64,000 nucleotides of DNA, from NCBI GenBank assembly GCA_947567625.1, contig CANONN010000003.1:25140-89139 (forward strand), given 5' to 3'. Positions within the stretch are counted from its first letter, which is position 1; every line of letters begins with the position of its first letter. A program made the translations under genes and the position numbers. The stretch comes from an uncultured Roseburia sp. Its GTDB lineage: Bacteria > Bacillota > Clostridia > Lachnospirales > Lachnospiraceae. The notes below the pieces were generated by a model. The model did not search any database, had not been told where the DNA came from, and worked only from the letters and a program-made list of their open reading frames with translations. This document shows positions 28,311-64,000 of the stretch, piece after piece.

Positions 28311-28516
28311 TCTCTCTCTCCTTATTTATTACGGTTGGAAATAAAATATTCCATTCCTTGCTGCACACATTTTAAATGACATTGAAATTTGGGTACATAT
28401 ATTCCTTTGAAATAGGGAAAACACATATAAAACTTGAAAGAAACACACAAAAGAATTGTTTTGATTTGAAAGAATTAAAAGAAATCTGCTGATTCTTAAC
28501 ACCTTGTCTGCACAAA

Positions 28517-29232: not shown

Positions 29233-29307
29233 GAACGCACCTTTAAAGCTTTGTTACATCCATTCTATGTGAAGTACAAGCTTTCTGTGCTTTTCCAGCT
29301 TTTTTTT

Positions 29308-30321
29308 CTACCGTATTCTCTCGGTCAGGCCCACCTTCTTTTGCACTTTGCGCAGTGTCTTCTCCGCAAAATACCTTGCTTTGCCGTCGTTTTCTTTGAT
29401 GCGCGAATCGATATAGCTCTTGTCGGCGACAAGCTCCCGGTAACGCTCCTGGAGCGGTTTTAACCGAGCGGAAACCGCCTCCCCGACGGCCAGTTTAAAG
29501 TCGCCGTAGCCCTTGCCGGCGAACTCGTGCTCTGTCTCCTCCCTGGTCTTACCGGTGACAGCTCCATATATATCGATCAGGTTGCTGACGCCGGGCTTGG
29601 ACTGGGCGTCATAGCGCACCTCGCTCCCGGAATCCGTCACTGCGCGCTTGAATTTGCGCATAATCGTGTCCACATCATCCAACAGATAAATCGTCGCGTT
29701 TGCGTTCTCGTCCGATTTGGACATCTTGCGCTCCGGCTCCTGTAAACTCATGACTTTGGCGCCGGACTTGCCGATATACGCCTCCGGAATCGTAAAGACA
29801 TCCCCGTAAATATTGTTAAAACGCAAGGCGATGTCCCGGCAGATCTCCAGATGCTGCTTTTGGTCGATGCCCACCGGAACCACATCGGTCTGATAGAGCA
29901 GAATATCGGCCGCCATCAGAACCGGGTAAGTGTAGAGACCGGCATTGATGTTGTCCGCATGCTTCGACGCCTTGTCTTTAAACTGTGTCATACGGTTGAG
30001 CTCACCCATATAGGTAAAACAATCCAATATCCAGCCGAGCTCGGCGTGCGCCGAAACATGGGACTGAAAGTAGATGCAGTTCTTCTCCGGGTCCAAACCG
30101 GCCGCCACATAGAGCGCGTACAGATTTCTGGCATTTTTGCGAAACTCTGCCGGATTCTGGCGCAGTGTCAGAGAATGTAAATCCATGACGCCGTAAAAAC
30201 GCTCATACGCGTCGTCGTCGGACAGATCGACCCAGTTCTTTAACGCGCCCAGATAATTGCCAAGGGTCAGCGTCCCTGTCGCCTGCATACCGCTGTATAA
30301 TATTTTCTTCTCGCCTATCAT
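29308..30321 (-). CDS. trpS: Tryptophan--tRNA ligase
   Basis: Class I synthetase charging tRNA-Trp. The HIGH-type motif is seen as TLGNYLGA near the N-terminus and the KMSKS loop as ERKMSKSDENANA. The frame extends to 30360, but AAGGAG lies nine bases before the ATG at 30321, which gives 337 aa beginning MIGEKKILYSGMQATG, the usual TrpRS start. It lies downstream of the DUF5662 gene with a 43-nt gap. No T-box leader is visible upstream. Confidence 0.97.
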   Translation of the reverse strand: MIGEKKILYSGMQATGTLTLGNYLGALKNWVDLSDDDAYERFYGVMDLHSLTLRQNPAEFRKNARNLYALYVAAGLDPEKNCIYFQSHVSAHAELGWILDCFTYMGELNRMTQFKDKASKHADNINAGLYTYPVLMAADILLYQTDVVPVGIDQKQHLEICRDIALRFNNIYGDVFTIPEAYIGKSGAKVMSLQEPERKMSKSDENANATIYLLDDVDTIMRKFKRAVTDSGSEVRYDAQSKPGVSNLIDIYGAVTGKTREETEHEFAGKGYGDFKLAVGEAVSARLKPLQERYRELVADKSYIDSRIKENDGKARYFAEKTLRKVQKKVGLTERIR

Positions 30322-30364
30322 CTCTTCTATCTCCTTTTTCCCGGCGCACCGCCTTTCCAAACGG

Positions 30365-30988
30365 TCACGCCTCCGCTTCCATCTTCTCTCTCACATGGTC
30401 AAGACGCTTTTTATTGTAGGGCACCGTACCGCGCAGAAGACGTCTGCGGATAAACTGAAATGTCGCTTCCTCGCCGCGCTTTGCAAGCATGGTGAGAAGG
30501 AGCTCTAGCAGCGCTCTGGTGTCCTCATGCATGATATAGTGATCGCAGCCCTTTTTGTAGTATTCGAGCGGGCTGCTGTCTGTATACCGCTCCTGCTGAT
30601 AGATCTTGGAGGCGGACATACGGTCAATCAACATCTCCACCACATACTTTACCGGCATCTTCATACCGCACATGCCGGAATGTTCTAACTTTCCATCCAC
30701 CTTCTTTGGGACACCGTAATCAATCCAGTATTCCAGATGGTGCCGGTTGCGCCCTTTATGGTGAAGCCACGCGGACGAATAGCCCACAGCCGCGCGCTCC
30801 GCATTATTCGGGCTCATCGTACCCCGGTAATATTTGCAGCCGACCCAAAATTCTGCCGGCGAATATTTTGACAAATCATGCATAAGCCCCTGCCGATAAA
30901 GCCCCACGCGAAAACAGCCCTGCATAACCAGCTTCTTATGCCTGGTAATCGTCAAAAGATGCTCTTTTATTTTCATTTGACCATTCAC
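30365..30988 (-). CDS. DUF5662 family protein
   Basis: Cytoplasmic protein of unknown function common in Clostridia. Conserved His/Asp-rich segments are visible: LMHDLSKYSPAEFWVGCKYY (about 35-54) and HHKGRNRHHLEYWIDYG (about 76-92). They look like a metal-binding helical fold, possibly HD-like, though that is inference. 207 aa. Its start overlaps the end of the GlgX-like gene by 4 nt (ATGA), so translation is coupled. Confidence 0.85.
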   Translation of the reverse strand: MNGQMKIKEHLLTITRHKKLVMQGCFRVGLYRQGLMHDLSKYSPAEFWVGCKYYRGTMSPNNAERAAVGYSSAWLHHKGRNRHHLEYWIDYGVPKKVDGKLEHSGMCGMKMPVKYVVEMLIDRMSASKIYQQERYTDSSPLEYYKKGCDHYIMHEDTRALLELLLTMLAKRGEEATFQFIRRRLLRGTVPYNKKRLDHVREKMEAEA

Positions 30989-33039: not shown

Positions 33040-33263
33040 GTAACCATTCAGCCTTCGGCTTCCCTGCTATTTGGCACTACCGGCTGCTAACTGCGCAGCA
33101 AGTGCACAGTTGCAGGCAAAACTATTCCGCCTTCGGCTTCATAGTTACGGAATCCGGCTCATTTAAAGGTTGTCTTCGACAAAGAGCCGGATTCCCGCTT
33201 GGCTAGATATACGCGTTCTTGCGGACTTTGCAGCGAGTGCAAAGTCCTGAGCTGAACTGTTAC
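33040..33263 (+). repeat. Dispersed palindromic repeat, copy A (longest)
   Basis: This 224-base element fills most of the 449-base gap 32902-33350. Its ends are inverted (GTAAC-n-TTCAGC at the left, GCTGAACTGTTAC at the right). Inside are a 12-bp stem GGAATCCGGCTC / GAGCCGGATTCC (33149-33160, 33184-33195) with an inner TTGTC/GACAA stem, and a 10-bp stem GGACTTTGCA / TGCAAAGTCC (33223-33232, 33238-33247). The left part (33060-33120) is absent from copy B. No coding capacity. Confidence 0.85.
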
Positions 33264-38789: not shown

Positions 38790-40088
38790 CTACTGCACGG
38801 TAGAAGCCGTGACCCCCGTCACCAGCTCATCCATCAGCTCCTGCAGATCTTTGCCGTCAGGATTTCCCGCGGCCATTGCGTTGCCAAAATCTGCGAACGG
38901 CATCCAGAAATTATTGCCCACACGCTGCAATTTACCGAACTCTCCCTGCGCAATGACCGCCTGTATCGCCGGCACCTGTTTGACCGCGTCGGATGCGGCC
39001 GCCTTGATATTGGACGGCCCCTGATCTCTCTGTTCAAAACGGATGGTCTGATTCTGTTCGTTTGTCAGCCAATCGGCCAGCTCAAGCGCCCACTCCTTAT
39101 GTGCGGAATAGGCATTGACCCCCATCATCTTATAGCCGGTAAAAGAGGACATCTGAATCTGCTGACCGCCGCAGGTGTAGGTCGGCAGCTTGCAGGCGCC
39201 GTAATCCTTACCCCAGGTATTTTTGACTTCGATCGCGTTCCACACGCCGCTGACCCCGGCAATCACCTGACCGGACGCGATCGCGGCCGGAAATTCACTG
39301 TCCGACTGCGATAAAAATCCCGGACTGGCAGATATGGCAAGCAATGCCTGCGCGATATCTACTCCCTTTATGGCGCCCTCCGTCGTGTTCCAGTTGCAGT
39401 AATTGGTCACCCCGTCATCATTGATGCCGAATTCCAGGCCGGTATTGCCAAAAAAGGAATACAGATACCAGCCGGAAGCCCACTCCATGGAAAACTGCTT
39501 GCCGTTGGCCTCGCAGACCGCAAGTATGCCATCCATCGTCTTGACATCCTCTTCCGTGAAATAGTCTTTGTCATAATACAAAAAATAGCCGTTGTCCGCC
39601 GTCATGGGATAAGCGTAAACGATATCATTGATCGTGGCCGCCTCCACCGCCTCCTCCAGATTGGCCGTCCTCACGGCCTCCTGGTCTTTCACAGGCTCTA
39701 ACGCGCCCGCCGCTACCAGTGCAGACAACTGGTCGTCGGCAAACGGAAAGATATCCGCCGCATTGTGAATATCGCCCAGCACCTTGTCTTTGGAAGCACT
39801 GTCGGCGCTCTCCTCCAGCACAATTTCAAAATCCGCTTCTCCCTTGTGCGCCTCTTTGAACGAATCGATCATCTTCGTCATCATCTCAAAGTTGGCCTCC
39901 TCGGCCCAGACCTTCAGTGTGACTTTGCCGTTATCCGCTTCCTGTTTGCCAGAAGCGTCTGCCGCCGGCTCCCCCGGAGAAGTTTCCGTCTCGCTTTTCA
40001 CAGCCTCCTGTCCGCCGGTACCGCAGCCCAAAAGCAACCCTGGGACCACCGACATGCACAATAATACCGCTAACGCTTTTTTCTTCAA
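38790..40088 (-). CDS. Extracellular solute-binding lipoprotein (MalE/family 1 type)
   Basis: Periplasmic-type binding protein tethered as a lipoprotein: basic start [10 protein letters not shown], hydrophobic stretch and lipobox LLLGC, then an Asp/Glu-rich linker. The core begins [20 protein letters not shown] and contains [19 protein letters not shown], typical of sugar or oligosaccharide binders. GGAGGT seven bases upstream favours a TTG start at 40088 over the ATG at 40103. No ABC permease or ATPase gene is adjacent; the next gene is a chemoreceptor. Confidence 0.92.
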
Positions 40089-40188
40089 GTTTCGTACCTC
40101 CATATCCCGCCGTCTGCCAAACCTCCCTCTGCTTTAACAGAATAGGCAGGCCGCTCATTTTTAATCCGAACCGTTACCTCTTCTAGTT

Positions 40189-40217
40189 ATTCTACTATAT
40201 TCTGGAAATGAAAACAA
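40189..40217 (-). promoter_or_regulatory. Candidate promoter of binding protein-chemoreceptor operon
   Basis: Minus-strand TTGTTT (40212-40217) and TAGAAT (40189-40194) are 17 bases apart. The -35 sits in the T-run of the upstream feo terminator. Motif match only. Confidence 0.35.
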
Positions 40218-40247
40218 GCATGGTCTTTCGCTCCATGCCTGTTTTTT
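40211..40247 (-). terminator. Terminator after feo operon
   Basis: Arms GCATGG / CCATGC, extended by AACA / TGTT with one mismatch, enclose a short loop and have T-runs on both strands, so it may act in both directions. It lies about 35 bases past the Cys-rich protein gene. Confidence 0.7.
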
Positions 40248-40280
40248 GTCCCACAATGAATTTGCCGCCGCAGGCTTCCT

Positions 40281-40457
40281 CTACCTGACATCATCCTCAT
40301 CCCTGCACGCACACGAGCAGGAACGGCAGTCACGCGCAAAACCGCAGCCTCCGCCGCAATGGCCGCATTTCCCCGTGTTCCGTGAACACCAGCCCCTGAC
40401 CGCCAGAAAGAGCCAGAGAAACATCAACCCCGTAATCATATAATCCGCTATACTCAT
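40281..40457 (-). CDS. FeoB-associated Cys-rich membrane protein
   Basis: A 58-residue single-pass membrane protein with one TM helix (about 6-22) and a cytoplasmic tail rich in Cys and Gly (CGHCGGGC, CRSCSCAC). Such proteins follow feoB in many Firmicutes and are thought to help FeoB handle Fe(II), the role FeoC plays elsewhere. The ATG at 40457 has GGAGGT upstream and overlaps the feoB stop by 4 nt, which rules out the longer frame reaching 40544. Confidence 0.9.
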   Translation of the reverse strand: MSIADYMITGLMFLWLFLAVRGWCSRNTGKCGHCGGGCGFARDCRSCSCACRDEDDVR

Positions 40458-42460
40458 AGGAACCTCCCACCAATCTGATAGACAAGACAGGCCGCCAGCC
40501 ACGCGACCACACACTGCAGCAGCACGATTCCCGCCGCCTTCCATCCACTGCCAAGTTCACGCTTTACCGCCGCCACCGCCGCCACGCAGGGCGTATACAG
40601 GAGCGTAAAGACCAAAAAGCTCACCACGGAAAGGCCGGAAAACAGCGTAGGAAGCACGGTGTTTAACTGCGACACCGGCGTCCCAAGCAGTACGCTAAGC
40701 GTGCTCACCACGGCCTCCTTTGCCGTGAATCCGGTGATCAGCGCCGTTGAAATGCGCCAGTCCGCAAAACCGAGCGGTGCAAACACCGGCGATATCCATT
40801 TGCCGACGAGCGCCAAAAGGCTCTCGCTGCCATCCCCTACCACATTAAAGCGGGGATCAAATGTCTGCAAAAACCAGATGATAACCGTCGCCACAAAGAT
40901 AATCGTAAACGCGCGCTGCAAAAAATCCTTTGCTTTGTCCCAAATCAGCCGCGCCACGCTTTTTGCCGAAGGGAAACGGTAATTGGGCAGCTCCATGACA
41001 AACGGAATCGGATTGCCGCGAAAGGCCGTGCGGCGCAGACAGGCGGCAGACAAAATGCCGACCGCAATGCCTGTCACATACAAAAGTATCATCACAAGCG
41101 CCTCCCTGCCCGGAAAGAACGTCATAGCAAACACGGAATAGATCGGTATTTTGGCCGAACAGCTCATAAACGGCGTCAACATGATCGTCATCCGCCGGTC
41201 CCGCTCGGAGGAGAGCGTTCGCGTCGCCATCACCGCAGGAACGGTACATCCAAAACCGATTAACATCGGCACAAAGCTTCTGCCGGACAAGCCGATCTTG
41301 CGCAGCGGCTTATCCATCACGAAGGCGACGCGCGCCATGTAGCCGGAATCTTCCAGAATAGACAGGAAGAAAAATAAGACTATAATGACCGGCAGAAAAC
41401 TTAGGACACTGCCCACTCCCGCAAACACGCCGTCTATGACCATGCTATGTACCACCGGATTGATACCGTAGCGCGTAAGCCCCCTGTCGCTGAGCGCCGA
41501 CAGGCTGTCAATGCCAAGCGACAAAAGGTCGCTGAGCGCCGCGCCGATCACGTCAAAGGTGAGCCAAAAGATCAAAAGCATGATCACCAAAAAAGTGGGC
41601 AGCGCCAGATATTTGTTGGTCAGGAAACTGTCAATCCTGACACTTCTGCGGTGCTCTCTGCTCTCCTGGCACTTTTTAACGGTACTGCCGCAGACCTGCT
41701 CAATAAAGGTATAGCGCATATCGGCCAGCGCCGCGTTGCGGTCCAATCCGCCGTCGTGCTCCATCTCAGCGATGCTGTGCTCCATCATATCCAGCTCGTT
41801 CTCGCGCAGCGCCAGGCGTGCGATGATATCCGCATCCCCCTCCACGATCTTGGTCGCCGCAAACCGGGGCGACATGCCGATATTGACGGCGTGATCTTCC
41901 ACTTGATGGGAAAGAGCGTGCACGCAGCGGTGCACCGGCCCCTTGGCGCAAAAATCCATGACCTGCGGATAAATCTTATTTTTTGCGACATATACAATAT
42001 TCTTAATCAGCTCTTCGATGCCTTCATCTTTGGCCGCGCTGATCGGAATCACCGGAATCCCGAGCTGTTTTGACATCTCCCGGTAGTCGATAGAACCCCC
42101 GTTTCCGCGCACTTCATCCATCATATTGAGTGCAAGCACCATGGGCGTATGCATCTCTAAAAGCTGTAGGGTCAGATAGAGGTTACGCTCAATGTTGGTG
42201 GCGTCGACAATATTGATAATGCCGTCCGGCCGCTCATTTAAGATAAAATCTCTGGTGACAATCTCCTCGTTGGTATACGGGCGGATGGAATAAATTCCCG
42301 GCAAATCCACAACCGAGCAGTCTTTGGCGGAGCGAATCTCACCGATTTTTCGGTCAACCGTCACACCGGGAAAATTGCCCACATGCTGATTGGAGCCGGT
42401 AAGCTGGTTAAAAAGCGTCGTTTTGCCGCAATTTTGATTCCCTGCCAGTGCAAATATCAT
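40454..42460 (-). CDS. feoB: Ferrous iron transport protein B
   Basis: Fe(II) transporter with an N-terminal G-protein domain: G1 GNQNCGKTTLFNQL (about 7-20), G3 DLPG, G4 as ALNMMDE in place of NKMD-type. Helical spacer to about residue 270, then a polytopic membrane domain with Gate motifs around FLPVIIVLFFFLSILEDSGY and LIGFGCTVPAVMATRT (each with the family's conserved Cys/Gly). Length 668 aa is typical. It overlaps feoA by 4 nt. Confidence 0.97.
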   Translation of the reverse strand: MIFALAGNQNCGKTTLFNQLTGSNQHVGNFPGVTVDRKIGEIRSAKDCSVVDLPGIYSIRPYTNEEIVTRDFILNERPDGIINIVDATNIERNLYLTLQLLEMHTPMVLALNMMDEVRGNGGSIDYREMSKQLGIPVIPISAAKDEGIEELIKNIVYVAKNKIYPQVMDFCAKGPVHRCVHALSHQVEDHAVNIGMSPRFAATKIVEGDADIIARLALRENELDMMEHSIAEMEHDGGLDRNAALADMRYTFIEQVCGSTVKKCQESREHRRSVRIDSFLTNKYLALPTFLVIMLLIFWLTFDVIGAALSDLLSLGIDSLSALSDRGLTRYGINPVVHSMVIDGVFAGVGSVLSFLPVIIVLFFFLSILEDSGYMARVAFVMDKPLRKIGLSGRSFVPMLIGFGCTVPAVMATRTLSSERDRRMTIMLTPFMSCSAKIPIYSVFAMTFFPGREALVMILLYVTGIAVGILSAACLRRTAFRGNPIPFVMELPNYRFPSAKSVARLIWDKAKDFLQRAFTIIFVATVIIWFLQTFDPRFNVVGDGSESLLALVGKWISPVFAPLGFADWRISTALITGFTAKEAVVSTLSVLLGTPVSQLNTVLPTLFSGLSVVSFLVFTLLYTPCVAAVAAVKRELGSGWKAAGIVLLQCVVAWLAACLVYQIGGRFL

Positions 42461-42693
42461 GTCGTCTCTTCCTCCGGAATAATCTCTATCTTTGCCGCAT
42501 CCTCTTTGCGGATGGTAAGCTCATAACCGCGTATCCGCAGTTCTATCGGATCCCCCATCGGCGCCACTTTCTGTATCTGTACTTTTGTGCGCGGTATCAG
42601 TCCCATGTCAAGCAGCCTGCATCTTAACGCGCCCTCGCCGCCGACCGCCGTAATCGTCGCCGATTTTTTGATCTGTAACTCGTCCAGTGTCAT
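42457..42693 (-). CDS. feoA: Ferrous iron transport protein A
   Basis: SH3-like cytoplasmic partner of FeoB. The FeoA core is clear: LRCRLLDMGLIPRTKVQIQK followed by DPIELRIRGYELTIRKEDA. A GTG start at 42702 is possible, but the ATG at 42693 lies a better distance from AAGGGA; 78 aa. First gene of the feo operon, behind the strong promoter at 42737-42764. Confidence 0.95.
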   Translation of the reverse strand: MTLDELQIKKSATITAVGGEGALRCRLLDMGLIPRTKVQIQKVAPMGDPIELRIRGYELTIRKEDAAKIEIIPEEETT

Positions 42694-42736
42694 ATATTCC
42701 ACGTCCCTTGCTAAAAAGTTATACCTGTTTCTATTT

Positions 42737-42764
42737 ATTATACAAATACACGCGGCAATGTCAA
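42737..42764 (-). promoter_or_regulatory. Promoter of the feo operon
   Basis: Perfect TTGACA (42759-42764) and TATAAT (42737-42742) are separated by 16 bases, about 40 bases before feoA. I did not find a convincing Fur-box palindrome over it. Confidence 0.7.
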
Positions 42765-42805
42765 TCCACTTCCAGAAAAAAGTTAGTCGTCTTTAACTCA
42801 AACGT

Positions 42806-43219
42806 TCACCAGGATACGCCGATGACATTGATATACAGCACATGTACGATGATGATAAACAGCGCCGCATAAAGATACCACCCGTGAAACCGCATACCCT
42901 TTATGTGCGGCACATGCAGGCGCTCCAGCAGATGGCTCCCCATAAAGAGAACATACAACCCAACGCCGTACGGCACCACCGGATGATAGCGGAAGGACTG
43001 CACAAGATCGCCGTGAAGCAGTGCAAGTACCGCTCTGGTACCGCCGCACCCCGGACAATAGAATCCCGTCACGGCGTGAAACATACAGCCCGCAAACGGC
43101 ATACGCGGCACAAAGAATCGAAGATACCATAACAATGCAATGCACCCCAGCAAAAAGCACCATATGCCCGCCAGGAATAATTGATCTTCCAAACTGCTGT
43201 TTTTATTTTTGTGATTCAT
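42806..43219 (-). CDS. DUF2752 membrane protein
   Basis: Small membrane protein of unknown function with the DUF2752 signature FYCPGCGGTRAVLALLHGDL near residues 53-72, holding a CPxCG motif, and three hydrophobic helices. The ATG at 43219 has GGAGG upstream; a longer frame to 43381 would translate a set of hairpins and is rejected. 137 aa. Probably one unit with the DUF2085 gene and the two-helix protein upstream. Confidence 0.85.
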   Translation of the reverse strand: MNHKNKNSSLEDQLFLAGIWCFLLGCIALLWYLRFFVPRMPFAGCMFHAVTGFYCPGCGGTRAVLALLHGDLVQSFRYHPVVPYGVGLYVLFMGSHLLERLHVPHIKGMRFHGWYLYAALFIIIVHVLYINVIGVSW

Positions 43220-43252
43220 AGGAATCCTCCATGTCGAAACGATGCGCCAAGT

Positions 43253-43277
43253 AAAAAGAATCACTTCGTGATTTTTT
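43253..43277 (-). terminator. Terminator-like hairpin after DUF2085 gene
   Basis: AATCAC / GTGATT arms with a 3-nt loop (43259-43273) and T-runs on both strands. A second palindrome (CAAGCTG / CAGCTTG, 43279-43297) is next to it. Both lie in the 171-base gap before DUF2752. Confidence 0.5.
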
Positions 43278-43390
43278 GCAAGCTGCTGCGCAGCTTGAGA
43301 ATTGATGCGTCTAGCGGCGCAGTTTCCTACTATAAAGTAAAAAATGGAGACTATGCCAAGAATCCTTAACATAACCTCCATCTTCCTATT

Positions 43391-43807
43391 TTACAAAAAC
43401 ATTTCCATTGCTCTGTCTATCTTGGTCGGATCATCCCAAAACTGCTTTAATATCCATCCCGCAATATGTATACATCCACGATGAATATAAATCAGCGTAA
43501 AATCAAAAGCCAGCCCGAACAAGATTCCAGTAAACAATCTGCGCAGATTACCGCTCTCATAGGATGTCAGTAGCTGAAGAAAGCCGTCAACCAACAATGG
43601 CACCATCATCAAAAATACATACGGTATCCTGGGAAACCCAAAAATAATCGCCGTCGGTATCCCTGCCAAAATGCCAATCAGCTCTCCCGTGCACCTGGCA
43701 CATATGGGAAACTGCTTCCCCCGAAAGAAGAAAGAACGCTCCGGCCTAGCATGACAGCCAAAGAGAATCTGCAAAAATCTGCCAAGCTTATGAGTAAAGC
43801 GCTGCAA
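43391..43807 (-). CDS. DUF2085 membrane protein
   Basis: Membrane protein of unknown function with the DUF2085 pattern: CHARPERSFFFRGKQFPICA (about 18-37), then RCTGE, with conserved Cys/His and several hydrophobic helices. 138 aa. The start is a TTG inside the end of the preceding small-protein gene (20-nt overlap), with GGTGTGAG as a modest ribosome site. Confidence 0.85.
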   Translation of the reverse strand: MQRFTHKLGRFLQILFGCHARPERSFFFRGKQFPICARCTGELIGILAGIPTAIIFGFPRIPYVFLMMVPLLVDGFLQLLTSYESGNLRRLFTGILFGLAFDFTLIYIHRGCIHIAGWILKQFWDDPTKIDRAMEMFL

Positions 43808-44018
43808 GGCTCACACCAGCGATAGCCATTATGATGTAGAATACAACATAAGCAACTACACAGACAAGTGCACCGATTCCGGCTGCTTTTGCTGTTCTTG
43901 GCTTGCTGTCTTTCCATACAAGGAATAAGATCAAACCTACGATCGGGATACAGCATCCAAGCAATCCCCATAAAAAGCCACCCTTGTCGTCAACATTTGT
44001 GTTCAAATTATTATCCAT
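43788..44018 (-). CDS. Small two-helix membrane protein
   Basis: A 76-residue protein with an Asn/Asp-rich N-terminus and two hydrophobic helices (about 14-34 and 45-70) joined by the charged loop WKDSKPRTAKAA. I do not recognise a named family; it resembles small membrane proteins common in Clostridia. A strong GAGGAGGTCG ribosome site precedes the ATG. It heads a likely three-gene membrane set with DUF2085 and DUF2752. Confidence 0.75.
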   Translation of the reverse strand: MDNNLNTNVDDKGGFLWGLLGCCIPIVGLILFLVWKDSKPRTAKAAGIGALVCVVAYVVFYIIMAIAGVSLAALYS

Positions 44019-44035
44019 CTTGCGACCTCCTCTGC

Positions 44036-44086
44036 TAGAAAACGATTGATTTAAAAACCCATACCATCCAGCTTATTCGTTTTCTA
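44036..44086 (-). promoter_or_regulatory. Leader stem-loop before two-helix membrane protein
   Basis: A perfect 10-bp stem (44036-44045 with 44077-44086; arm TAGAAAACGA) closes a 31-nt loop and ends a few bases before the ribosome site of the gene starting at 44018. With the promoter at 44144-44173 the leader would be about 120 nt. Confidence 0.5.
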
Positions 44087-44143
44087 AAATAAATATGAAC
44101 TTTATTAATTTTTCATGAATCTAACGCGTTAAAAATCTTAATA

Positions 44144-44173
44144 AGTATATCAAATAAATCTCCGATTTGTCAA
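44144..44173 (-). promoter_or_regulatory. Promoter of the small membrane-protein set
   Basis: Perfect TTGACA (44168-44173) and TATACT (44144-44149) are separated by 18 bases on the minus strand, downstream of the chemoreceptor gene. Confidence 0.6.
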
Positions 44174-44220
44174 GATATATTTTGTGAATTGCAAATGATT
44201 TCCATTCATAATCCAATATT

Positions 44221-45588
44221 TTAAGCTCCTGCTATGCGCTGCAACGCTTCCAGGTCGGCGATCAATTCCTGCGAATATACGGCGGCTTCATTGTAAATCT
44301 GCTGCGCTTTTTGATGATTTCCGCTCTTTAAGGCGCGAATCACTTCCTCGCCGAATTGATGGAATCTCTTGTGCTTTTCATCGAGCGCTCTCCAGATCGG
44401 TATCGCTGCAGGCATTTTGGGTTTCATGGCGTAATAAAAATGACCGAACCCGCATTTGGTAGCATCCAGCTGCAACGGCATAAGCGTATCAGTGTCCACC
44501 ATGTTTTTGAGATTGCCAAGCCATGTGTGGTGCGCCGCTACTGCGCTCTTAAGATACTGGGCAAACTCGTTGTTTTTGAGGTGAAAGAACGGGTCTTCCG
44601 CCATGCTGCCCATCTGTTTTACCGTATCATCCAGCGTAGATTCGATTACCACCACCGGTTCCACCGCTTTTTTCAAATCGACACTGACCTGATTCATAAA
44701 ATCGGTACTGTCGCGCAGATGATTTTCCATCTCGGTCATGGAACTGCTGAGCTCCTGACTGACCGCGGCAATGGAGCTGACGGATTCGTTGACGTTTGAG
44801 ACATGTCGCTGGTTTTCGTTATTTAATTCCCACACGTTTTTGATCTTTTCCGTCATCCCTTCCAAGGCACTGATCGTATTTTCGGCACTTTTGACACTCT
44901 TTTGGGATGCGTTCTTGATACTCTCCACAAAATCGCCCATATCCCCGGTCAGCTTCTGCGTCTCCTCCGCCAGGGCACGAATCTCATTTGCGACCACGGC
45001 AAAACCACGTCCGGCTTCGCCTGCCCTGGACGCCTCGATCGAAGCGTTTAACGCGAGCAGGTTTGTCTGGAGGGATATGGAGTCAATCCCCGCAATAACC
45101 TCGTTCATGCGATTGATAATCTTAAACAGATTATCCATATCCTGCTGCATCTCCCTAGAGCCCACAATTGTCTGATTGGAGAGCTCTTTGATCGTTGTCA
45201 GCTCCGCCTGACTGGTCTCTATCTTCTGATATACTTCCTCCGTCTGTGAGGAAACCTCAATGATGGTATTGGCCAGCTCCTCGTGCTGGCTGTTCGCCCT
45301 GCCCGACGTTACTTCTTCCCCCGACGCAGCGCCAAAAATCGACTCGGTAGCCTTGGCCACATCCTCCGCTATGTTTACAATCTTTTCCGTCTGATGCTGC
45401 ATCGTTAGATCAAGGGAGCTGATCTGCATCACCGCTTTCATATTTTTCTCAAATATCTCGGCAAACTGCTCTCTTCCGCTTGCCAGTCTCTGATAAATCT
45501 GATAAAGCTGTGGGTCCTTTGAATAATTTGCCTCTTTTAGTTCTGAAAGTGCTTTTACAAGTGTAACATTCTTCCTTCCTATTGCCAT
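44221..45588 (-). CDS. Soluble chemoreceptor with C-terminal CZB zinc-binding domain
   Basis: Cytoplasmic methyl-accepting protein: no TM helix anywhere. The signalling tip [20 protein letters not shown] lies near residues 173-192. The C-terminal CZB domain (about 325-440) shows the His/Cys set [17 protein letters not shown] and [11 protein letters not shown] domains bind zinc and can sense oxidants such as hypochlorous acid. 455 aa. An AGAGG site precedes the ATG. Likely tunes swimming to redox or zinc state. Confidence 0.93.
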
Positions 45589-45737
45589 TTACATACCTCT
45601 TTCCAATTTTATGTTGTGCTTTTATCTGCTGCAATCAGGACTGCGCATTCTGTGGCATATTATATTTTTCTACACTATATCATAAAGTATTTTTTACTTT
45701 TTGCATAGCCCTATTTTTATTTTCAAGCGCAATTCAT

Positions 45738-45884
45738 GTAACTGATTCAGCTTTCGGCTTCATAGTTACGGAATCCGGCTCATTTAAAGTTTGTCTTCGA
45801 CAAAAAGCCGGATTCCCGCTCGGCTGGATATACGCGTTCTTACGGACTTTGCAGCGAGTGCAAAGTCCTGAGCTGAACTGTCAC
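45738..45884 (+). repeat. Dispersed palindromic repeat, copy B
   Basis: 147-base relative of copy A with the same ends (GTAAC...TTCAGC and GCTGAACTGTCAC) and both internal stems, lacking the extra left segment of copy A. It lies in the 449-base gap 45589-46037 between cotJC and the CZB receptor gene. The rest of that gap holds the cotJC terminator and a perfect CATGCCGGCATG palindrome (45956-45967). Confidence 0.85.
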
Positions 45885-45909
45885 CAATTCATACACTTTT
45901 TACAAAATA

Positions 45910-45947
45910 AGCCGCTGCTCTGCGGTTTACACCACAAAGCAGCAGCT
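45910..45947 (-). terminator. Terminator-like hairpin after cotJC-like gene
   Basis: Sixteen-bp imperfect stem (arms 45910-45925 and 45932-45947) followed on the minus strand by a T-rich stretch, about 90 bases past the stop at 46038. Confidence 0.45.
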
Positions 45948-46037
45948 CTTTTAAACATGCCGGCATGCTTAAACAATAAACAAAACACGCTGCAAACTGT
46001 CGTTACGCTCCGTAACACAAGCCTCCGTATACTGGGA

Positions 46038-46592
46038 TCAACAGTTTGGTTTCCCGCAATTTGTGTCAAACTCAGGATTGCAGATATAGAAGTTTTTGCT
46101 GTCCAGCTCATCCTGCACCATGCGCAGACCTTCACCGAAACGCTGGAAATGAACAACTTCGCGCGCGCGAAGGAAGCGAATCGGATCGCAGACTTCCGGG
46201 TCTTTTACCAATCGCAGTATATTGTCATACGTGGTGCGGGCTTTCTGCTCTGCTGCCATATCCTCAAACAGATCGGTTATGGCGTCGCCCTTAGACTGAA
46301 ATTCACAGGCATTGAACGGGATGCCGCCCGCGGCCTGCGGCCAGATTCCCGCTGTATGGTCAACGTAATACGGCGCAAAGCCTGCGGCTTCCAATTCCTC
46401 AGCGCTAAGGCCCTTTGTGAGCTGCCGCACAATCGTCGCCACGATCTCAAGATGGGCCAATTCTTCCGTACCGATATCGGTCAAAATACCTGCTACTTTG
46501 CGGTATGGCATACTGTAACGCTGCGAGAGATAGCGCATAGAAGCTCCCATCTCACCGTCAGGTCCTCCGTACTGCATGAGTTGATAAATCAC
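46038..46592 (-). CDS. cotJC: CotJC-type manganese catalase-like protein, 5' truncated
   Basis: Spore-coat/Mn-catalase family protein. Metal-ligand segments are intact: DGEMGASMRYL, GTEELAHLEI, MAAEQKARTTY and REVVHFQRFGE. The family's first 20-25 residues (starting like MWVYEKKLQYPV) are missing: the frame begins with GTG at 46592, preceded at once by an in-frame TAG and by no good ribosome site. No cotJA or cotJB is adjacent. The chain is 184 aa and may not be translated well. It follows the broken hydrolase gene by 10 bases. Confidence 0.8.
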   Translation of the reverse strand: MIYQLMQYGGPDGEMGASMRYLSQRYSMPYRKVAGILTDIGTEELAHLEIVATIVRQLTKGLSAEELEAAGFAPYYVDHTAGIWPQAAGGIPFNACEFQSKGDAITDLFEDMAAEQKARTTYDNILRLVKDPEVCDPIRFLRAREVVHFQRFGEGLRMVQDELDSKNFYICNPEFDTNCGKPNC

Positions 46593-46602
46593 ACCCTATG
46601 TT

Positions 46603-47553
46603 TCATACATAACGGTTCAGCCACTCGGTAGACGCGTCCATGGCGGTACGGCAGGCATTGGTCTGATCAAGCGCATGGAGCATCACAAAATCATGTATCG
46701 TACCCTGTATCCGTACAGCGGTAACATCGACACCGGCACATCGCAGTTTTTCTCCAAATGCCTCTCCCTCGCTGCGCAGTACATCTGCCTGCCCGTTGAT
46801 AATCATCGTCTGCGGAAAACATTTCAAACAATCTATGCCCGCTCGCAGCGGGGAGGCCGTGATCTGATTTCGCTCCTCCGCAGAGCATGTATATTGCTGC
46901 CAGAACTATTTCATCCCTTCCCGATACAGATAATAATCGACCGCAAATTGGCGGTAGCTCGGTGTGTCAAAGCAGGCATTGGTCACCGGATAATACAACA
47001 GCAGCTTGTGAATATCAGGACCACAGCGCATCAATGACATAAGCACCATGGCAATCGCCATATTTCCGCCAACACTGTCGCCTGCAATGGTAAGTGCCGT
47101 CCCGTTATCAATTGAAAAGCGATTTCCGATTATTTCTTTTAGATGAGTGAGGATAAAATAGCACTGTTCTATCGCCGTCGGATATTTTGCCTCGGGTGAG
47201 CGGCTATATTCAGGGAATACAACCAGTGAATCTGTCCTCGCCGAGAGCTCTCTAACCAGCTTCTCGTGTGTATGGAAACTTCCGAATACCCAGCCCGCCC
47301 CGTGAATATAGAATATAATATTTCTAATCTTTTTGTCCCTGGGAACAACAAAATATACCGGGATACTGCCCCATTTTCCCGTGCTTATGCAAGCGGAGGA
47401 TATGTTTGCAGGGTATTGATATACAGGGGTATCCTGCATTTCTTCCAATACCCTTCTGCCTTGCTCGGGCGGCAGCTGAAAGATCAGCGGCGGCACGGCG
47501 CTTTGGTTGCAGATCTCTTCTGCAGCCGGTTCTAAGGGAACGCATCGTTTCAT
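46603..47553 (-). pseudogene. Alpha/beta hydrolase interrupted by one amber codon
   Basis: Hormone-sensitive-lipase-type esterase. The oxyanion motif HGAGW, nucleophile motif GDSVGGN, acid region ADVLRSEG and catalytic-His region IHDF are all in a single frame. A lone TAG at 46904-46906 follows EGMK and stands where relatives usually have Trp (TGG). No frameshift: the 100 codons after it continue the family. ATG at 47553 has GGGAG upstream; a start at 47571 is also possible. Full length would be about 316 aa. Confidence 0.85.
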
Positions 47554-47686
47554 CCTACGTTCTCCCTTCATACGATTCTTGTTGCTTATATCATATGCAG
47601 CTCATTGCGTTTCAAACTCTTTCTGCAATAAAATCTCATAAAAACCAAAGGCGCTTTCCCTGCATGTTTTTTACCCCCTTTCCTGC

Positions 47687-47788
47687 TTACGGTTCGTGAT
47701 TTATGTAGGGAATATATTTATCTATCCATTCATAATCCTCTTTAGAGATCGCATATATATCTGCGCAGAAATGACGTCCTATTCTCGG
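47687..47788 (-). pseudogene. Orphan coding-like fragment after spoIVB
   Basis: A 33-codon stretch open from stop to stop, without a start codon, reads like the C-terminus of a real protein (includes GRHFCADIYAISKEDYEWID). I do not recognise the family. It lies in the 291-base gap 47572-47862 between the hydrolase pseudogene and truncated spoIVB; nothing else is evident in that gap. Confidence 0.3.
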
Positions 47789-47862
47789 TCAATGAATCAG
47801 GAAAACCACCAGAAACGCCCTGTTTATCAGCTTTTTCTGTGTTTGTCCTTATTATAACTCAC

Positions 47863-48972
47863 TCACATCCCCTGCACAATTCCTCCCGTCAGATCAATGA
47901 GTTCTCTGTCCGTCACCTGAAATAAGATGCCTTTGTTGGCTTCCCTGCCGCTGTAATCAATATTTTCGATCGAAATTTCATAGCTTTTTGTCTCTCCCGA
48001 AATTGAGGAAATCACGTAGGCGGTTCCGGTGCGGATATCCTGCTTATACGCCACCTCATAGCTGAGAGCCGCCGAGAGATGGTCGAGGTTCCCGTCGAGA
48101 TTGCCATATATGCCTATGCCGGTATTTTCCGAAATTCGACCCATGCAGCAGCTTTTGTTATAGTTTATGACGCCGGAGAGCTCTCCCGGATTTCCGTTTT
48201 CCCCTTTTCTGATTCCGATAATATTGGTCAGATAAATCCAACCCTCACTCACCTGCATCATCGTTCCCGTATCTCCGTCACTGACGGCGTGTCCAAGCGC
48301 TCCGAAATCTCCATCGCCGTCGTAATAGGTCATCGTGCCGACGCCTGCCAGATCGTCTCTGACCCAAATGCCCAGTTTATACATACCGTTATCGCTCATG
48401 ATCGGCTCGATGGCCACCTCGATGTATTCGCCGTCGCGGCGTATCCCCAAGATTTCCTTTTCCCCGCCATAGAAATCTATCTTTTCTATCAGACTTTCTT
48501 TCTCCGTCACCTTCTCGCCATTGATGCTGACAATATAATCTCCGCTTTTTACACAATTTTCCGCGGGTTTTACCAGCTCACCCGACTGGGAAGTGAACTC
48601 TCCGGCCGCGATCACGAGCACGCCGTTCGTCTTTACATATATGCCGATCGGCATACCGCTGGCATAGACCTCGCCTGCGTCGAGCACCGTCACCGCGATA
48701 TCTTTGATCGGAATCACGCCGAACAGTTTACAGGTAACCGTATATGTGATGCGCTGCTCCATGGGATTGCCCGACAACTGTTTCAACACTTCCCTGCTGT
48801 CCTCTTTTAACACAACGCGTACCGGCAGAGAATAGTCATATTTAATCTCCTCCCCCGCATTGATGTACATGACATCGGGGATGGAATCGTAAAAAGTGCG
48901 CACTGCAAAAAACGCGACGATCATCAATCCCAAATATGTGATTTGCTGCATGATGTGCTGTAATTTTCCCAT
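47863..48972 (-). CDS. spoIVB: SpoIVB serine peptidase, truncated before catalytic Ser
   Basis: Sporulation signalling protease of the SpoIVB (S55) family. It has an N-terminal TM helix (about 10-27), a PDZ domain (about 100-190) and the peptidase domain with catalytic-His motif FGALGHAVSD. The C-terminus reads TDRELIDLTGGIVQGM then stops (TGA at 47863-47865). Relatives continue with SGSP, which holds the catalytic Ser, and about 45 more residues. The ATG at 48972 has AGAGGA upstream. 369 aa. Probably inactive. It follows recN as in other spore formers. Confidence 0.88.
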   Translation of the reverse strand: MGKLQHIMQQITYLGLMIVAFFAVRTFYDSIPDVMYINAGEEIKYDYSLPVRVVLKEDSREVLKQLSGNPMEQRITYTVTCKLFGVIPIKDIAVTVLDAGEVYASGMPIGIYVKTNGVLVIAAGEFTSQSGELVKPAENCVKSGDYIVSINGEKVTEKESLIEKIDFYGGEKEILGIRRDGEYIEVAIEPIMSDNGMYKLGIWVRDDLAGVGTMTYYDGDGDFGALGHAVSDGDTGTMMQVSEGWIYLTNIIGIRKGENGNPGELSGVINYNKSCCMGRISENTGIGIYGNLDGNLDHLSAALSYEVAYKQDIRTGTAYVISSISGETKSYEISIENIDYSGREANKGILFQVTDRELIDLTGGIVQGM

Positions 48973-49003
48973 GATTCCTCTCAATCCGCCGCATTCGCGG
49001 CAT
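48973..49003 (-). promoter_or_regulatory. Hairpin leader before spoIVB
   Basis: A GCCGC/GCGGC stem with a 4-nt loop (48988-49001) is followed by GGATTGAGAGGA and the ATG, near-identical in layout to the dprA leader at 26656-26688. Confidence 0.5.
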
Positions 49004-49022
49004 TTTCATCGGTGAAAAAGAA

Positions 49023-49076
49023 AATAAGAAGATTCTGCCTGCATGTCTTGTCCGCAGCGGCAGATATCTTCTTATC
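49023..49076 (-). terminator. Terminator after recN
   Basis: Long imperfect stem (about 16 bp, arms starting ATAAGAAGAT and ending TCTTCTTAT) followed on the minus strand by TTTTCTTTTT. It separates recN from spoIVB, so spoIVB probably needs its own promoter. Confidence 0.7.
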
Positions 49077-49139
49077 TATTATGTGGATATTTTATTTTTT
49101 CAATCATTTTGTCTTTGGCATATTTTGCCATTTATGCAG

Positions 49140-50825
49140 CTAAGACTGCCGCTCCTTTTTTTGCCGCGCCAGCTCTTTCATCTCTCCCGCGCTCTTTAAC
49201 ACGGTATCGGTAATCTCCACTCCTCCGAGCATCCGCGCAAGCTCCTCTACACTCTCCTCTTCCTCTAATCGGCGAATGTGGGAAACGGTCGACTGATTTT
49301 CCACCGATTTTTGAATGAGGTAATGAGCGTCGGCCATCGCCGCAATCTGCGGCAGATGCGTGATACAGATGATCTGGTGATTCTTTCCCAAAAAACTCAT
49401 TTTCTCGGAAACCATCTGTGCCGTCCTGCCGCTGATACCGCTGTCAATCTCGTCAAATATCAACGTATCAATGGCGTCCTGGCCGGCTAAAATCGTCTTG
49501 ATCGCCAGCATAATCCGCGAAAGCTCACCGCCGGAAGCCACCTTGCCCAAGGGCTTAAGCGGCTCTCCCGGGTTGGTGGAAATCAAAAATTCGGCATCGT
49601 CGTAACCGTTTGCCGTGTAATGCTCGGTCTGCTTAAATTCCATCTCAAACCTCACATCCAAAAAATTCAAATCTTTCAAAGACTCCGTGACATCCTCCGC
49701 CAGCTTTAGAGCCCTGCTCTGCCTGATCTTTGACACTTCCCCGCAGAGCTTTTGCAGTTCCGCCTCCGCGGCTTTGACGTGTTCTTTTAAATCGGCAAGA
49801 TAGGTATCGTAGTTCGCAAGCTTCTTCAGCCGCTGCTCTTTTTCCTGCGCGGCTTCCATCACTTCCTCAATGCTGCCGCCGTATTTGGCTTTTAAATGAT
49901 TGAGCAAATCCAGCCTTTTTTCGATCTCATAAAACGTAGCTTCATCAAACTCCGTCCCTTCGATATAGTCCGCCATCTCCCGGTTAAAATCGTTGAGCAG
50001 ATTATCGATCTCGGCCAGCTGGCTCTCACAGTTTTTGACTTTGTCATCGTATTCCGACACGGACATCAGTTCCCGCAGCGCACGGCCGAGAAGCTCCGTA
50101 GCGCTCTCCATGCCACCCCCGGTGCATCCGTAGGCCGCAGCCATGGCTTCCATGATGCGCTTGCCGTTACAAAAACGGCTGTATTCTGCTTCCAGCTCTT
50201 CATCTTCTCCGACTCTCAGCCTGGCCTCCTCGATCTCGTGGAGCTCATATTCGAGGAAAGAAATCTCGCGCACGCGGTCTTCGCCGTCTCTGTCCGCCTC
50301 CGCAAGCTCTTCCACAAGCTTGCGGTATTGGCGGTAAGTCTCTGCCAGGGCTTCCTTCCTGCTGCCAAGCTCCTCCCTGCAATAATCGTCCAATATCTCC
50401 AGATGCTTCTTCTTCGACAAAAGCGACTGATGCTCATGCTGTCCGTGAATGTCGATTAAAGAGGCCGCAATCTCTTTCATTCTGGAGGCGGGCATACTCT
50501 CCGCATTCACTTTGCAGGCGCCCCGACCGTTTGTAATCTTGCGGCTGATGATGACCTCGTCATTCTCCGCAATGACGCCAAAGCGTTCCAGCTGCTCTTT
50601 CACCCGCGCGTCCGTCACCGTAAACACCAGCTCAACCAGCGCGTAATCCGCGCCCTCGCGCACCATCTCCTTAGGAATCTTTTCCCCCAGCGCGAGATTA
50701 ATAGAACCGATAATGATAGATTTGCCGGCTCCCGTCTCGCCGGATAAAATATTAAGCCCCCGGGTAAACTCCACCTCAGACTCGTCGATCAATGCCAGAT
50801 TTTTCACATGCAGACTTTCTAACAT
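49140..50825 (-). CDS. recN: DNA repair protein RecN
   Basis: SMC-like ATPase acting early at double-strand breaks. Walker A is LSGETGAGKSIIIGSINLAL (about 28-47), coiled-coil arms span about 150-380, and the C-terminal half has the signature VASGGELSRIMLAIK and Walker B LIFDEIDSGISG. Length 561 aa is typical. It follows argR by 16 bases. Confidence 0.97.
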   Translation of the reverse strand: MLESLHVKNLALIDESEVEFTRGLNILSGETGAGKSIIIGSINLALGEKIPKEMVREGADYALVELVFTVTDARVKEQLERFGVIAENDEVIISRKITNGRGACKVNAESMPASRMKEIAASLIDIHGQHEHQSLLSKKKHLEILDDYCREELGSRKEALAETYRQYRKLVEELAEADRDGEDRVREISFLEYELHEIEEARLRVGEDEELEAEYSRFCNGKRIMEAMAAAYGCTGGGMESATELLGRALRELMSVSEYDDKVKNCESQLAEIDNLLNDFNREMADYIEGTEFDEATFYEIEKRLDLLNHLKAKYGGSIEEVMEAAQEKEQRLKKLANYDTYLADLKEHVKAAEAELQKLCGEVSKIRQSRALKLAEDVTESLKDLNFLDVRFEMEFKQTEHYTANGYDDAEFLISTNPGEPLKPLGKVASGGELSRIMLAIKTILAGQDAIDTLIFDEIDSGISGRTAQMVSEKMSFLGKNHQIICITHLPQIAAMADAHYLIQKSVENQSTVSHIRRLEEEESVEELARMLGGVEITDTVLKSAGEMKELARQKKERQS

Positions 50826-50841
50826 CTTAAACCTGCCTTTC

Positions 50842-51297
50842 TTACTTTTCTCTCACAATTTTCATTAACCGCTCCTTCACGGCAGCGGTGTCTTCTACGG
50901 TGCGGACCGCACACATAATCGTATCGTCCCCGGCGATGCAGCCCACCACCTCGTACAGATGCATGGCATCGAGAGCCGCCGCCACCGCCATCGCCATACC
51001 GGAAACCGTCTTGACCACCAGAATATTCTGCGCCGTATCCATGGAGACAACGCCGTCCCGAAACACGCGCTTATACCTTTCATCAAGCTCCCGGGCCTGC
51101 CCGGACAAAGGCGCATATTTTTGCCTGCCGTCTTTTGTGGCGACCTTAGTCAGCTTTAATTCGCGGATATCCCGACAGATCGTCGCCTGCGCCGCCTGAT
51201 ACCCCTCACGCTCCAGATAAGCGGAGAGCTCCTCCTGGGTCTCAATGTCATGGTTGCCGATTACTTCCAAAATTTTTTCCTGACGCTTCGATTTCAT
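50842..51297 (-). CDS. argR: Arginine repressor ArgR
   Basis: Arginine-responsive hexameric regulator. The N-terminal winged helix includes TQEELSAYLEREGYQAAQAT and ICRDIRELKL (about 21-50); the C-terminal core, with MAVAAALDAMHLYEVVGCIA and GDDTIM, binds arginine at trimer interfaces. 151 aa. It lies between nadK and recN, the usual Firmicute neighbourhood. Confidence 0.96.
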   Translation of the reverse strand: MKSKRQEKILEVIGNHDIETQEELSAYLEREGYQAAQATICRDIRELKLTKVATKDGRQKYAPLSGQARELDERYKRVFRDGVVSMDTAQNILVVKTVSGMAMAVAAALDAMHLYEVVGCIAGDDTIMCAVRTVEDTAAVKERLMKIVREK

Positions 51298-51312
51298 TGC
51301 ACGCTCCTATAC

Positions 51313-52173
51313 TCATCCATAGGTTTCCATCTTCCTGCGCAAGATCTCGAGAAAGCTTTCATTGCGCAGCTTTAAAATCTGTGTGGTCTTCTCCGCCTTT
51401 CGTATCGCAAACTGGTCGCCGACCTTAAGCTTCACCGCGTTATCGCCGTCAAAGCTGACTTCGACCGTCTCATCCTTCTGCGAGCGGCGTCTGCCGATCT
51501 CCACCACGACCTCGTCCTCATCCCCGATGACGATGCTTCTGGTGCCAAGATTATGCGCATTGATCGGTGTAATCAAAATAACGCTCGCCTTCGGGTCCAC
51601 AATCGGCCCGCCGGCCGACATATTATATCCGGTTGACCCAGTGGGAGTAGAAATGATGATGCCGTCCGCATGAAATGTGTTCAGATACCGTCCGTTGACA
51701 GAAAGAATTAAATTGACAATCGAAAGGGAACCCGTGCGGTGAATGACAATATCGTTAAAGGCAATCTTGGGCGCCTCCCGCTCTCCTCCCCTGATGCCGC
51801 ACCCAACCAGCATCATGCGCCGCTCGATCATATACCGGTTGTCCATCAGCTGATCCAGCGCCCAGAACACGCTGTTCTCCTCCAGCTCACAGAGATAACC
51901 GAGCGTGCCGAGATTCACGCCGATGAGCGGAAGTCCACTTTGCATCATATGATCCGCCGCGCGTATCAGCGTACCGTCACCGCCCAAAACGATCACCCCC
52001 TGGGTTTCCGCTGGAATCTGCTCCGGTTTGGGCGCCGCCGCATCCTCGTCCTCACCGTTGCTGATATAGTAAGTACAACTGCCGCCCCTCTCTTCGATGT
52101 AAGATTTGATCTCCCCTGTCAGGCGCAGATTGGCATCCTTAAAAGAGTTCACAATAATCAAAAAATGTTTCAT
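51313..52173 (-). CDS. nadK: NAD kinase
   Basis: Makes NADP from NAD. The GGDGT motif is in VIVLGGDGTLIRAADHM (about 61-77), and the second family motif appears as TPTGSTGYNMSAGGPI. Length 286 aa is typical. It sits between tlyA and argR. Confidence 0.97.
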   Translation of the reverse strand: MKHFLIIVNSFKDANLRLTGEIKSYIEERGGSCTYYISNGEDEDAAAPKPEQIPAETQGVIVLGGDGTLIRAADHMMQSGLPLIGVNLGTLGYLCELEENSVFWALDQLMDNRYMIERRMMLVGCGIRGGEREAPKIAFNDIVIHRTGSLSIVNLILSVNGRYLNTFHADGIIISTPTGSTGYNMSAGGPIVDPKASVILITPINAHNLGTRSIVIGDEDEVVVEIGRRRSQKDETVEVSFDGDNAVKLKVGDQFAIRKAEKTTQILKLRNESFLEILRRKMETYG

Positions 52174-61324: not shown

Positions 61325-61384
61325 ACCGTTACGCGTTCTTACGGACTTTGCAGCGAGTGCATAGTCCCGGGCTGAATAGTGACA
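61325..61384 (+). repeat. Dispersed palindromic repeat, copy C (partial)
   Basis: Keeps only the right part of the family: ACGCGTTCTTACGGACTTTG onward, the GGACTTTGCA stem with one change in its right arm, and an end resembling GCTGAAyAGTGAC. It lies between ligA and rluF. Confidence 0.75.
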
Positions 61385-63813: not shown

Positions 63814-63916
63814 CTCTCGAAACACTTACAAAAAAATCCTATATAAGCTACGTTTTTTATGCTAACACAAAAAAACCTACTTGTCAAACCAGAATTTGCA
63901 TCAATAAAAAATTTTA

Positions 63917-64000
63917 GTAACCGTTCAGCTCAGGACTTTGCACTCGCTGCAAAGTCCGTATGAACGCGTATATCTTGCCAAGCGGGAATCCGGCTCTTTG
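63917..64000 (-). repeat. Dispersed palindromic repeat, copy D (runs off window)
   Basis: Inverted relative to copies A-C. It begins GTAACCGTTCAGCTCAGG, keeps the perfect 10-bp TGCAAAGTCC stem and the ACGCG segment, and enters the GGAATCCGGCTC stem where the window ends. Confidence 0.8.

Follow-up and report, generated by a model that had tools for sequence, protein, structure and literature searches.

Various sporulation genes are interrupted by intervening elements that encode their own recombinase of the large serine type, and the targets named below are mother-cell genes, as is described for sigK and gerE. In the passages cited here (PMC10747680, PMC5025042) the named elements (skin/sigK, spsM, vfbin, gerE and yin/yabG) interrupt sigK, spsM, spoVFB, gerE and yabG, and none of them resides in spoIVB. 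According to a passage of the latter source, insertion in genes of a terminal cell line ensures vertical transmission, the Listeria comK prophage being cited as an exception (PMC5025042). Another class of described systems is formed by the Streptococcus ICEs that carry a triplet of serine integrases at mutT, hsdM and traG; excerpts of the same paper describe triplet elements as disrupting their target genes (PMC4701971). SpoIVB itself is made under sigma-G in B. subtilis, where a spoIVB null mutant does not produce fully formed heat-resistant spores. C. difficile SpoIVB retains the three catalytic residues of the B. subtilis protein, and SpoIVB2 with a Ser-to-Ala substitution is dead (all from portions of PMC11392383). 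The element described below is of the known serine-recombinase-triplet kind, on a target, spoIVB, that was not found for such an element in the open-access PMC literature searched.

The window, a stretch of 64,000 nucleotides from the genome of an uncultured Roseburia sp. (G000; 3.42 Mb in 110 contigs), contains a spoIVB gene that is cut short (Table 1). The encoded protein ends in TGGIVQGM, directly followed by TGA, and its match to the Pfam profile Peptidase_S55 covers positions 2-175 of 210 (2-176 in the whole-genome search), so that the last 35 profile positions are lacking. The protein is 74% identical to that of the same-genus genome G032. A spoIVB match was found in 51 of the 60 relatives searched. 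Among the 29 of these 51 whose loci were compared (L007-L035), 28 continue in frame with the SGSP motif after the GGIVQGM site (26 by script and two added by a second check), and the single locus without this continuation, L032, has a contig end nearby. Because the 5' half stops at the codon after Met, one codon before this motif near the C-terminus, it lacks the Ser of SGSP, which we take to be the catalytic Ser of SpoIVB. The truncated protein, devoid of the motif and of the C-terminal part, should be inactive, with a predicted loss of protease activity. Elsewhere in the genus, spoIVB frames of odd length between stops were seen at L082 (G010; 561 aa) and L084 (G014; 488 aa).

On the recN side of spoIVB the gene order (recN-argR-nadK-tlyA) is conserved in relatives. 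The other side is taken up by a hydrolase frame with one in-frame TGA, which has no counterpart in the other loci compared. The main statements of the preliminary description, that spoIVB stops at the position of the catalytic Ser and that spo0A is not adjacent to it, are both borne out. Gene names, among them FeoB, GroEL, AddAB, RecN, GlgA and the transposase of L085, were assigned by eye.

Table 1. Features of the split spoIVB locus; positions are those of the window unless contig C31 is indicated
Feature	Position	Strand	Basis or remark
CotJC-like manganese catalase, first gene of the chromosomal block with feoA/feoB	46038..46592	-	domain and locus comparison; adjoins the left end region of the element
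Alpha/beta hydrolase (Abhydrolase_3), one in-frame TGA	46603..47571	-	Pfam
Left end of mobile element	47757..47865	-	shares 87% identity across 109 bp with its counterpart in the ~115-kb element of Schaedlerella arabinosiphila (G062)
TATAAT, -10 half of the proposed circle-junction promoter	47851..47856	-	9 nt after core
spoIVB 5' half (373 aa; S55 peptidase domain without SGSP motif and C-terminal part)	47863..48984	-	frame and Pfam
2-bp crossover core TG of attL	47866..47867	-	last two bases of the Met codon, TGA next
recN	49140..50825	-	adjoins spoIVB as in relatives; names by eye
LSR1, LSR2 and LSR3, three tandem co-oriented large serine recombinase genes	C31:25465-27183, 27184-28893, 28856-30487		domain search
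spoIVB 3' half	C31:30519-30649		S55 profile 175-210 matched at C31:30518-30625

The missing half of the gene, which encodes the SGSP motif, was located on another contig, C31. The window gene and this part are the only S55 matches in the whole genome (E <= 10), so that a second spoIVB, as considered in the preliminary description, is absent at that threshold. The 3' half resembles those of the same-genus genomes G022 and G032 (by eye). The contig also holds an intact spo0A (C31:37110-37937; Spo0A_C E 2.8e-46), which begins 6.5 kb downstream of this part of spoIVB and in order with it; the interval holds FecR, CHASE2-cyclase and HD-domain genes and an isomerase-like gene (the last by eye). A second, weak Spo0A_C-like match in this genome (L002, C85:1452-1661) remains below the curated cut-off. 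Because the 3' half and spo0A are both present on C31, no part of spoIVB has been deleted. Of the two possibilities raised earlier, deletion is therefore wrong, nothing being missing, and a move to another place is right. In this genus a gap between the two genes is by itself no anomaly, since adjacency varies among the twelve genomes compared: spo0A follows spoIVB at ~0.2-5.3 kb in six of them (G004, G006, G019, G020, G032 and G035), lies after the spoIVB 3' end on a second contig in G003, did not turn up in the 6-13.5 kb downstream of spoIVB that were retrieved for G010, G014, G016 and G023, and in G054 is near one of two spoIVB copies. G054, the genome with this second spoIVB, belongs to another family; there, at L071 (C21; 9273-11973), spoIVB and a serine recombinase gene are convergent.

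Directly before the 3' half on C31 lie three recombinase genes, each of which encodes Resolvase, Recombinase and Zn_ribbon_recom domains; all three frames are whole, and the end of LSR3 is separated from spoIVB by 31 bp. At the window junction spoIVB reads ...CAGGGGA-TG, then TGAGTGAGTTATAATAAGGACAA; on C31 the sequence is TTGTCCCTATATTGACACAAGCG-TG, then AGCGGCAGTCCC. The core TG is common to both junctions and the outer arms, TTGTCC and GGACAA, are inverted repeats; the two sequences therefore match the half-sites expected from a serine integrase. Seven left ends and twelve right ends have half-sites that agree in their arms and in the position of the core; five of the elements (G061-G065) are near-copies. 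In the alignment of the seven left ends, the first ~87 bp inside the element (window 47780-47865) are strongly conserved and a hairpin is possible in some; folding of three left ends singly gave z values of 0.64, -1.76 and -3.68. No RNA family reached gathering score at window positions 40000-52000. A small DUF6870 protein is encoded just upstream of the triplet (C31:25021-25323; 10021-10323 in L037). It is conserved in G000 and G062-G065, also occurs beside a different recombinase set in G015, and is a candidate recombination directionality factor.

We consider it highly probable that spoIVB was split by the site-specific integration of an ICE-type element with a 'triplet of serine integrases'. 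The recombinases would join the attP of the element to an attB that consists of spoIVB around ATG-AGC-GGC-AGC (Met, then the SGSP motif). Crossover would take place at the 2-bp TG, upon which the 5' half would stop at the next codon and the 3' half would come to sit behind the recombinase end. A later rearrangement in G000 would then have removed or displaced the interior of the element, leaving the left end (109 bp) in front of the cotJC-feoAB block and the recombinase end behind the groEL block, with the three recombinase frames and both half-sites persisting.

Elements that would represent the full-length state are found in other species. The spoIVB halves are ~115 kb apart on a single 6.35-Mb contig of S. 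arabinosiphila (G062) and ~108 kb apart on one contig of Eubacterium sp. 14-2 (G064); in G063 and G067 they reside on different contigs. Most frames of at least 130 aa in the S. arabinosiphila element point away from its left end, towards the recombinases. Seven of the ten proteins scanned have Pfam matches, including NlpC/P60 and RecD2, and the element encodes a T4SS coupling protein (T4SS-DNA_transf 1.6e-55) and a TraG-type P-loop ATPase; no relaxase was identified among these ten. The S. arabinosiphila element fits the serine-triplet ICEs described from Streptococcus (PMC4701971). In the flanks inspected beside either junction of G000 no conjugation genes were recognised.

The association between LSR3 and the spoIVB 3' half recurs. 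A peptide-pattern scan of one genome each of 84,980 species, which detects close relatives only, yielded seven LSR3 relatives at 60-71% identity. The spoIVB 3' half comes next in five of them. The contig of another, L085 (G061), stops exactly at the crossover core (...CTCATG, 11679), and L091 (Eubacterium sp. An11, G067) is located away from spoIVB. Two separate parts of the S55 gene and no whole copy are present in S. arabinosiphila, G063, Eubacterium sp. 14-2 and G067. For G061 the S55 search gave the 5' part only, the 3' half not being found in that assembly; that its contig breaks off just where attR and attP sequences would branch may be a sign of a mixture of integrated and circular molecules. 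At L085 4606-8208 LSR2 is preceded by a transposase-like frame (by eye) and an oppositely oriented spo0A, and LSR1 is missing, a rearrangement of the same element. The core of G067 is AG, not TG, and no recombinase gene was found within the 6.3 kb read before its right junction, the LSR3 relative being on another contig. G065 and G066 have an intact spoIVB plus an extra 3' part behind the recombinase, a configuration that is not explained by simple integration. In the present assembly of G065 (L099, C16:66000-85000) the intact gene is at 3385 and the second 3' end at 16059, 12.7 kb apart; the two 3' copies are identical over 128 bp and then diverge.

Within a sample of 397 genomes of the family, LSR3 relatives were found in four (G000, G203, G210 and G288; E <= 1e-110), all of which precede a spoIVB 3' part, that of G288 comprising the first dozen residues before the contig end. 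The left junction was found in two (G000 and G109), and signs of a split spoIVB thus extend to at least five of the 397, a lower bound; at most three candidates were scored per genome, and for G203, G210, G288 and G109 one of the two junctions was read. A human faecal contig (MT836038.1) has a 49.5% identical relative of LSR3, also upstream of a spoIVB 3' part. LSR3 relatives down to this level of identity thus occupy the spoIVB site, with one exception. In a tree of 53 recombinases, from which identical sequences (including L145, a copy of L144), frames below 300 aa and frames lacking the N-terminal motif were left out, LSR3 falls in a clade of 11 with support 100/100. Nine members of the clade are followed by the spoIVB 3' half, one is cut by a contig end at the core, and one is located elsewhere in a genome where spoIVB is still split. 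None of the 42 recombinases outside the clade has a spoIVB 3' part downstream; some of these rows offered less than 400 bp to inspect and the LSR1 and LSR2 rows precede the next recombinase. A plasmid home for the recombinase was rejected, two plasmid records being found at E <= 1e-60 with a best identity of 32.7%. The same holds for a phage home: the best of seven 'phage' records is MT836038.1, which looks like bacterial DNA because the spoIVB 3' half is present.

The G000 geometry itself calls for an additional step. The order in the window is the 109-bp left end, the hydrolase with its in-frame stop, and then cotJC-feoA-feoB. On C31 the recombinase module, whose homology with the other elements begins near C31:25059, is preceded by groEL and its neighbours. 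The groEL block is present in all seven groEL loci compared, and feoA and feoB follow cotJC in three of the five cotJC loci (one of the others has later genes of the block only and one reaches a contig end). Since chromosomal blocks adjoin both ends, the interior of the element would have been lost or displaced. The outer boundary of the recombinase module is marked by a dispersed repeat of 90 bp (C31:24981-25069, with another copy at 5940-6029), which may be the exchange point of the rearrangement. A prior adjacency of groEL and cotJC was rejected as the source of this geometry, as it was not seen in the loci fetched; in G035, which alone among these genomes is complete, 0.5 Mb separates the two, and the other genomes have them on different contigs. 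If a single inversion created the present state, the half-sites would now be inverted, and recombination would invert the intervening segment and rejoin spoIVB. The window also holds a dispersed repeat of up to ~145 bp (45741-45885, 33120-33263, 61330-61376 and 63914-64000), of which one copy is at the contig end.

The ends of the element carry what appear to be two halves of a promoter. In 11 of the 12 right ends TTGACA precedes the core by 6 nt (by 7 nt in MT836038.1), and in all seven left ends TATAAT follows the core at 9 nt, counts that are partly dependent because G061-G065 are near-copies and G109 was found via a pattern holding most of the -10. Joining right and left ends in silico yields TTGACA-N17-TATAAT. 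In the attL of the window the -35 slot (47874-47879) reads TTGTGC; in the seven integrated left junctions this slot is occupied by spoIVB sequence, never by TTGACA, and no promoter-like match at 9 of 12 was obtained at the window junction as integrated. The promoter would form only in the circle, and after excision would read into the left side of the element. A scan of IMG/VR with one exact pattern for circular attP gave no matches, and the circular junction was seen in none of the assemblies examined. Upstream of LSR1 a conserved TTGACA-N17-CATAAT resembles a vegetative-type promoter (by eye).

Two readings that dispense with an integrated element can be compared directly with these data. 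The two halves might stem from chimeric contigs, an assembly or binning artefact for which the 110 contigs of the genome and the odd geometry with chromosomal genes at both ends could be taken to speak. Both junctions, however, are inside contigs and have matching cores, congeners have a 3' half similar to that of G000, as noted, and the junctions are matched in separately assembled genomes, among which the S. arabinosiphila contig with both halves; we regard such an artefact as very improbable. The same observations bear on a base or assembly error at the TGA, which the preliminary description had named as a way to refute its reading: the junction is precise and of the attP x attB type, is accompanied by recombinase genes and occurs at the same place in other genomes. 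Because the junctions are reciprocal at the core and recurrent, an error of this type is strongly disfavoured. A deletion of the spoIVB 3' end together with spo0A would account for the absence of both beside the 5' half, but as the two are found on C31 it has next to no probability. Site-specific integration is left as the explanation that we favour.

What the integration means for sporulation is a separate matter, and here two views compete. The split could be a developmental, skin-like switch, in which the element, or the rearranged segment, is recombined out during sporulation and spoIVB is rejoined. In line with such a switch, both spoIVB halves are open and well conserved in G000, its three recombinase frames are whole, full-length spo0A matches are present in the carriers looked at (G000, G061, G062 and G063), and SpoIVA was found in all 13 genomes tested, 11 of which have a cut or recombinase locus; moreover, the elements in sigK, spsM, spoVFB, gerE and yabG offer precedents (passages of PMC10747680, PMC5025042). 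The forespore expression implied by sigma-G control in B. subtilis (PMC11392383, in part) argues against it, since upon excision in the forespore the element would be lost from the spore line unless reinserted, and it is terminal-cell targets that are said, in the passage cited, to ensure vertical transmission (PMC5025042). The vegetative-type site before LSR1 does not favour a switch either. Two stops interrupt the LSR3 frame of G203, and G061 lacks LSR1, where it has a transposase-like frame (by eye) instead; with recombinases broken or missing, rejoining is unlikely in these two. Finally, the LSR3 proteins of G061-G065 are 99% or more identical, which points to recent spread, so that the intactness of the halves needs no selection. 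We hold a switch to be unlikely. A plain knock-out, in carriers that do not complete sporulation and in gut lineages for which it is dispensable, seems somewhat more likely than not. The truncated SpoIVB lacks SGSP, and loss of spoIVB blocks heat-resistant spores in B. subtilis (PMC11392383, in part). The split has a low frequency in the family (at least 5 of 397), and triplet elements elsewhere disrupt their targets (PMC4701971, in excerpt). In addition, five of the 36 same-genus genomes have no spoIVB match at E <= 0.001, including G031 and G036 (96% and 100% complete), for which a loss of sporulation is possible. Together with the broken or missing recombinases of G203 and G061, these genomes support plain loss of sporulation in some members. 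The retention of SpoIVA in 11 of 11 carriers tested, and of spo0A where seen, counts against a knock-out.

An apparently broken sporulation gene can thus be explained as the target of a mobile element, and the two half-sites provide a simple marker for gut bacteria in which sporulation is perhaps switched or blocked by such an element; S. arabinosiphila DSM 106076 and Eubacterium sp. 14-2 are carriers that have been named as strains. A forespore-expressed target would contradict the advantage that is stated for terminal-cell genes in the passage cited (PMC5025042). The predicted excision-dependent promoter, if true, would link sporulation competence to the element's own genes. A more far-reaching proposal, which we put forward as a speculation with a small chance of being right, is that a conjugative element specialised on the catalytic-Ser codon of a forespore gene acts as a reversible sporulation switch: integration would turn sporulation off, excision would rebuild spoIVB and assemble the attP promoter for the left-side genes, and in G000, whose half-sites border chromosomal DNA, these recombinases could restore the gene through inversion (or splitting) of much of the chromosome.

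The proposed circle-junction promoter has parallels in other mobile elements. In the IS911 type, junction promoters are assembled from the element ends in the circular form, and circles of Tn4451 and Tn4453 reportedly form a promoter for TnpX, as the title of a study by Lyras and Rood from 2000 has it. The spoIVB element would resemble both in having a promoter made from its two ends in the circular form only. Unlike in Tn4451/Tn4453, the promoter, as predicted from the nucleotides, reads into the left side and not into the recombinase genes. The element shares with skin/sigK, SPbeta/spsM, vfbin/spoVFB, gin/gerE and yin/yabG the possession of its own large serine recombinase and the precise split of a sporulation gene. 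It differs from the prophage-like skin type in that its S. arabinosiphila relative is ICE-like, and from the elements in the mother-cell genes sigK and gerE in that spoIVB is under sigma-G in B. subtilis (according to the portion of PMC11392383 cited). Excision of skin-type elements is regulated; excision of the spoIVB element during sporulation is hypothetical, with the Listeria comK prophage as a possible precedent for such an event in a non-terminal cell (passage of PMC5025042). The spoIVB element is unlike the serine-triplet ICEs of Streptococcus in its target, at the SGSP motif, in its hosts, which are mostly Lachnospiraceae, and in that only the element ends remain in G000. Like those ICEs, it has at one end a co-oriented tandem of three large serine recombinase genes, disrupts a protein-coding target with a 2-bp core (TG, or AG in G067) where those have junction repeats of 2-8 bp, and, in its full-length S. 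arabinosiphila relative, carries conjugation genes.
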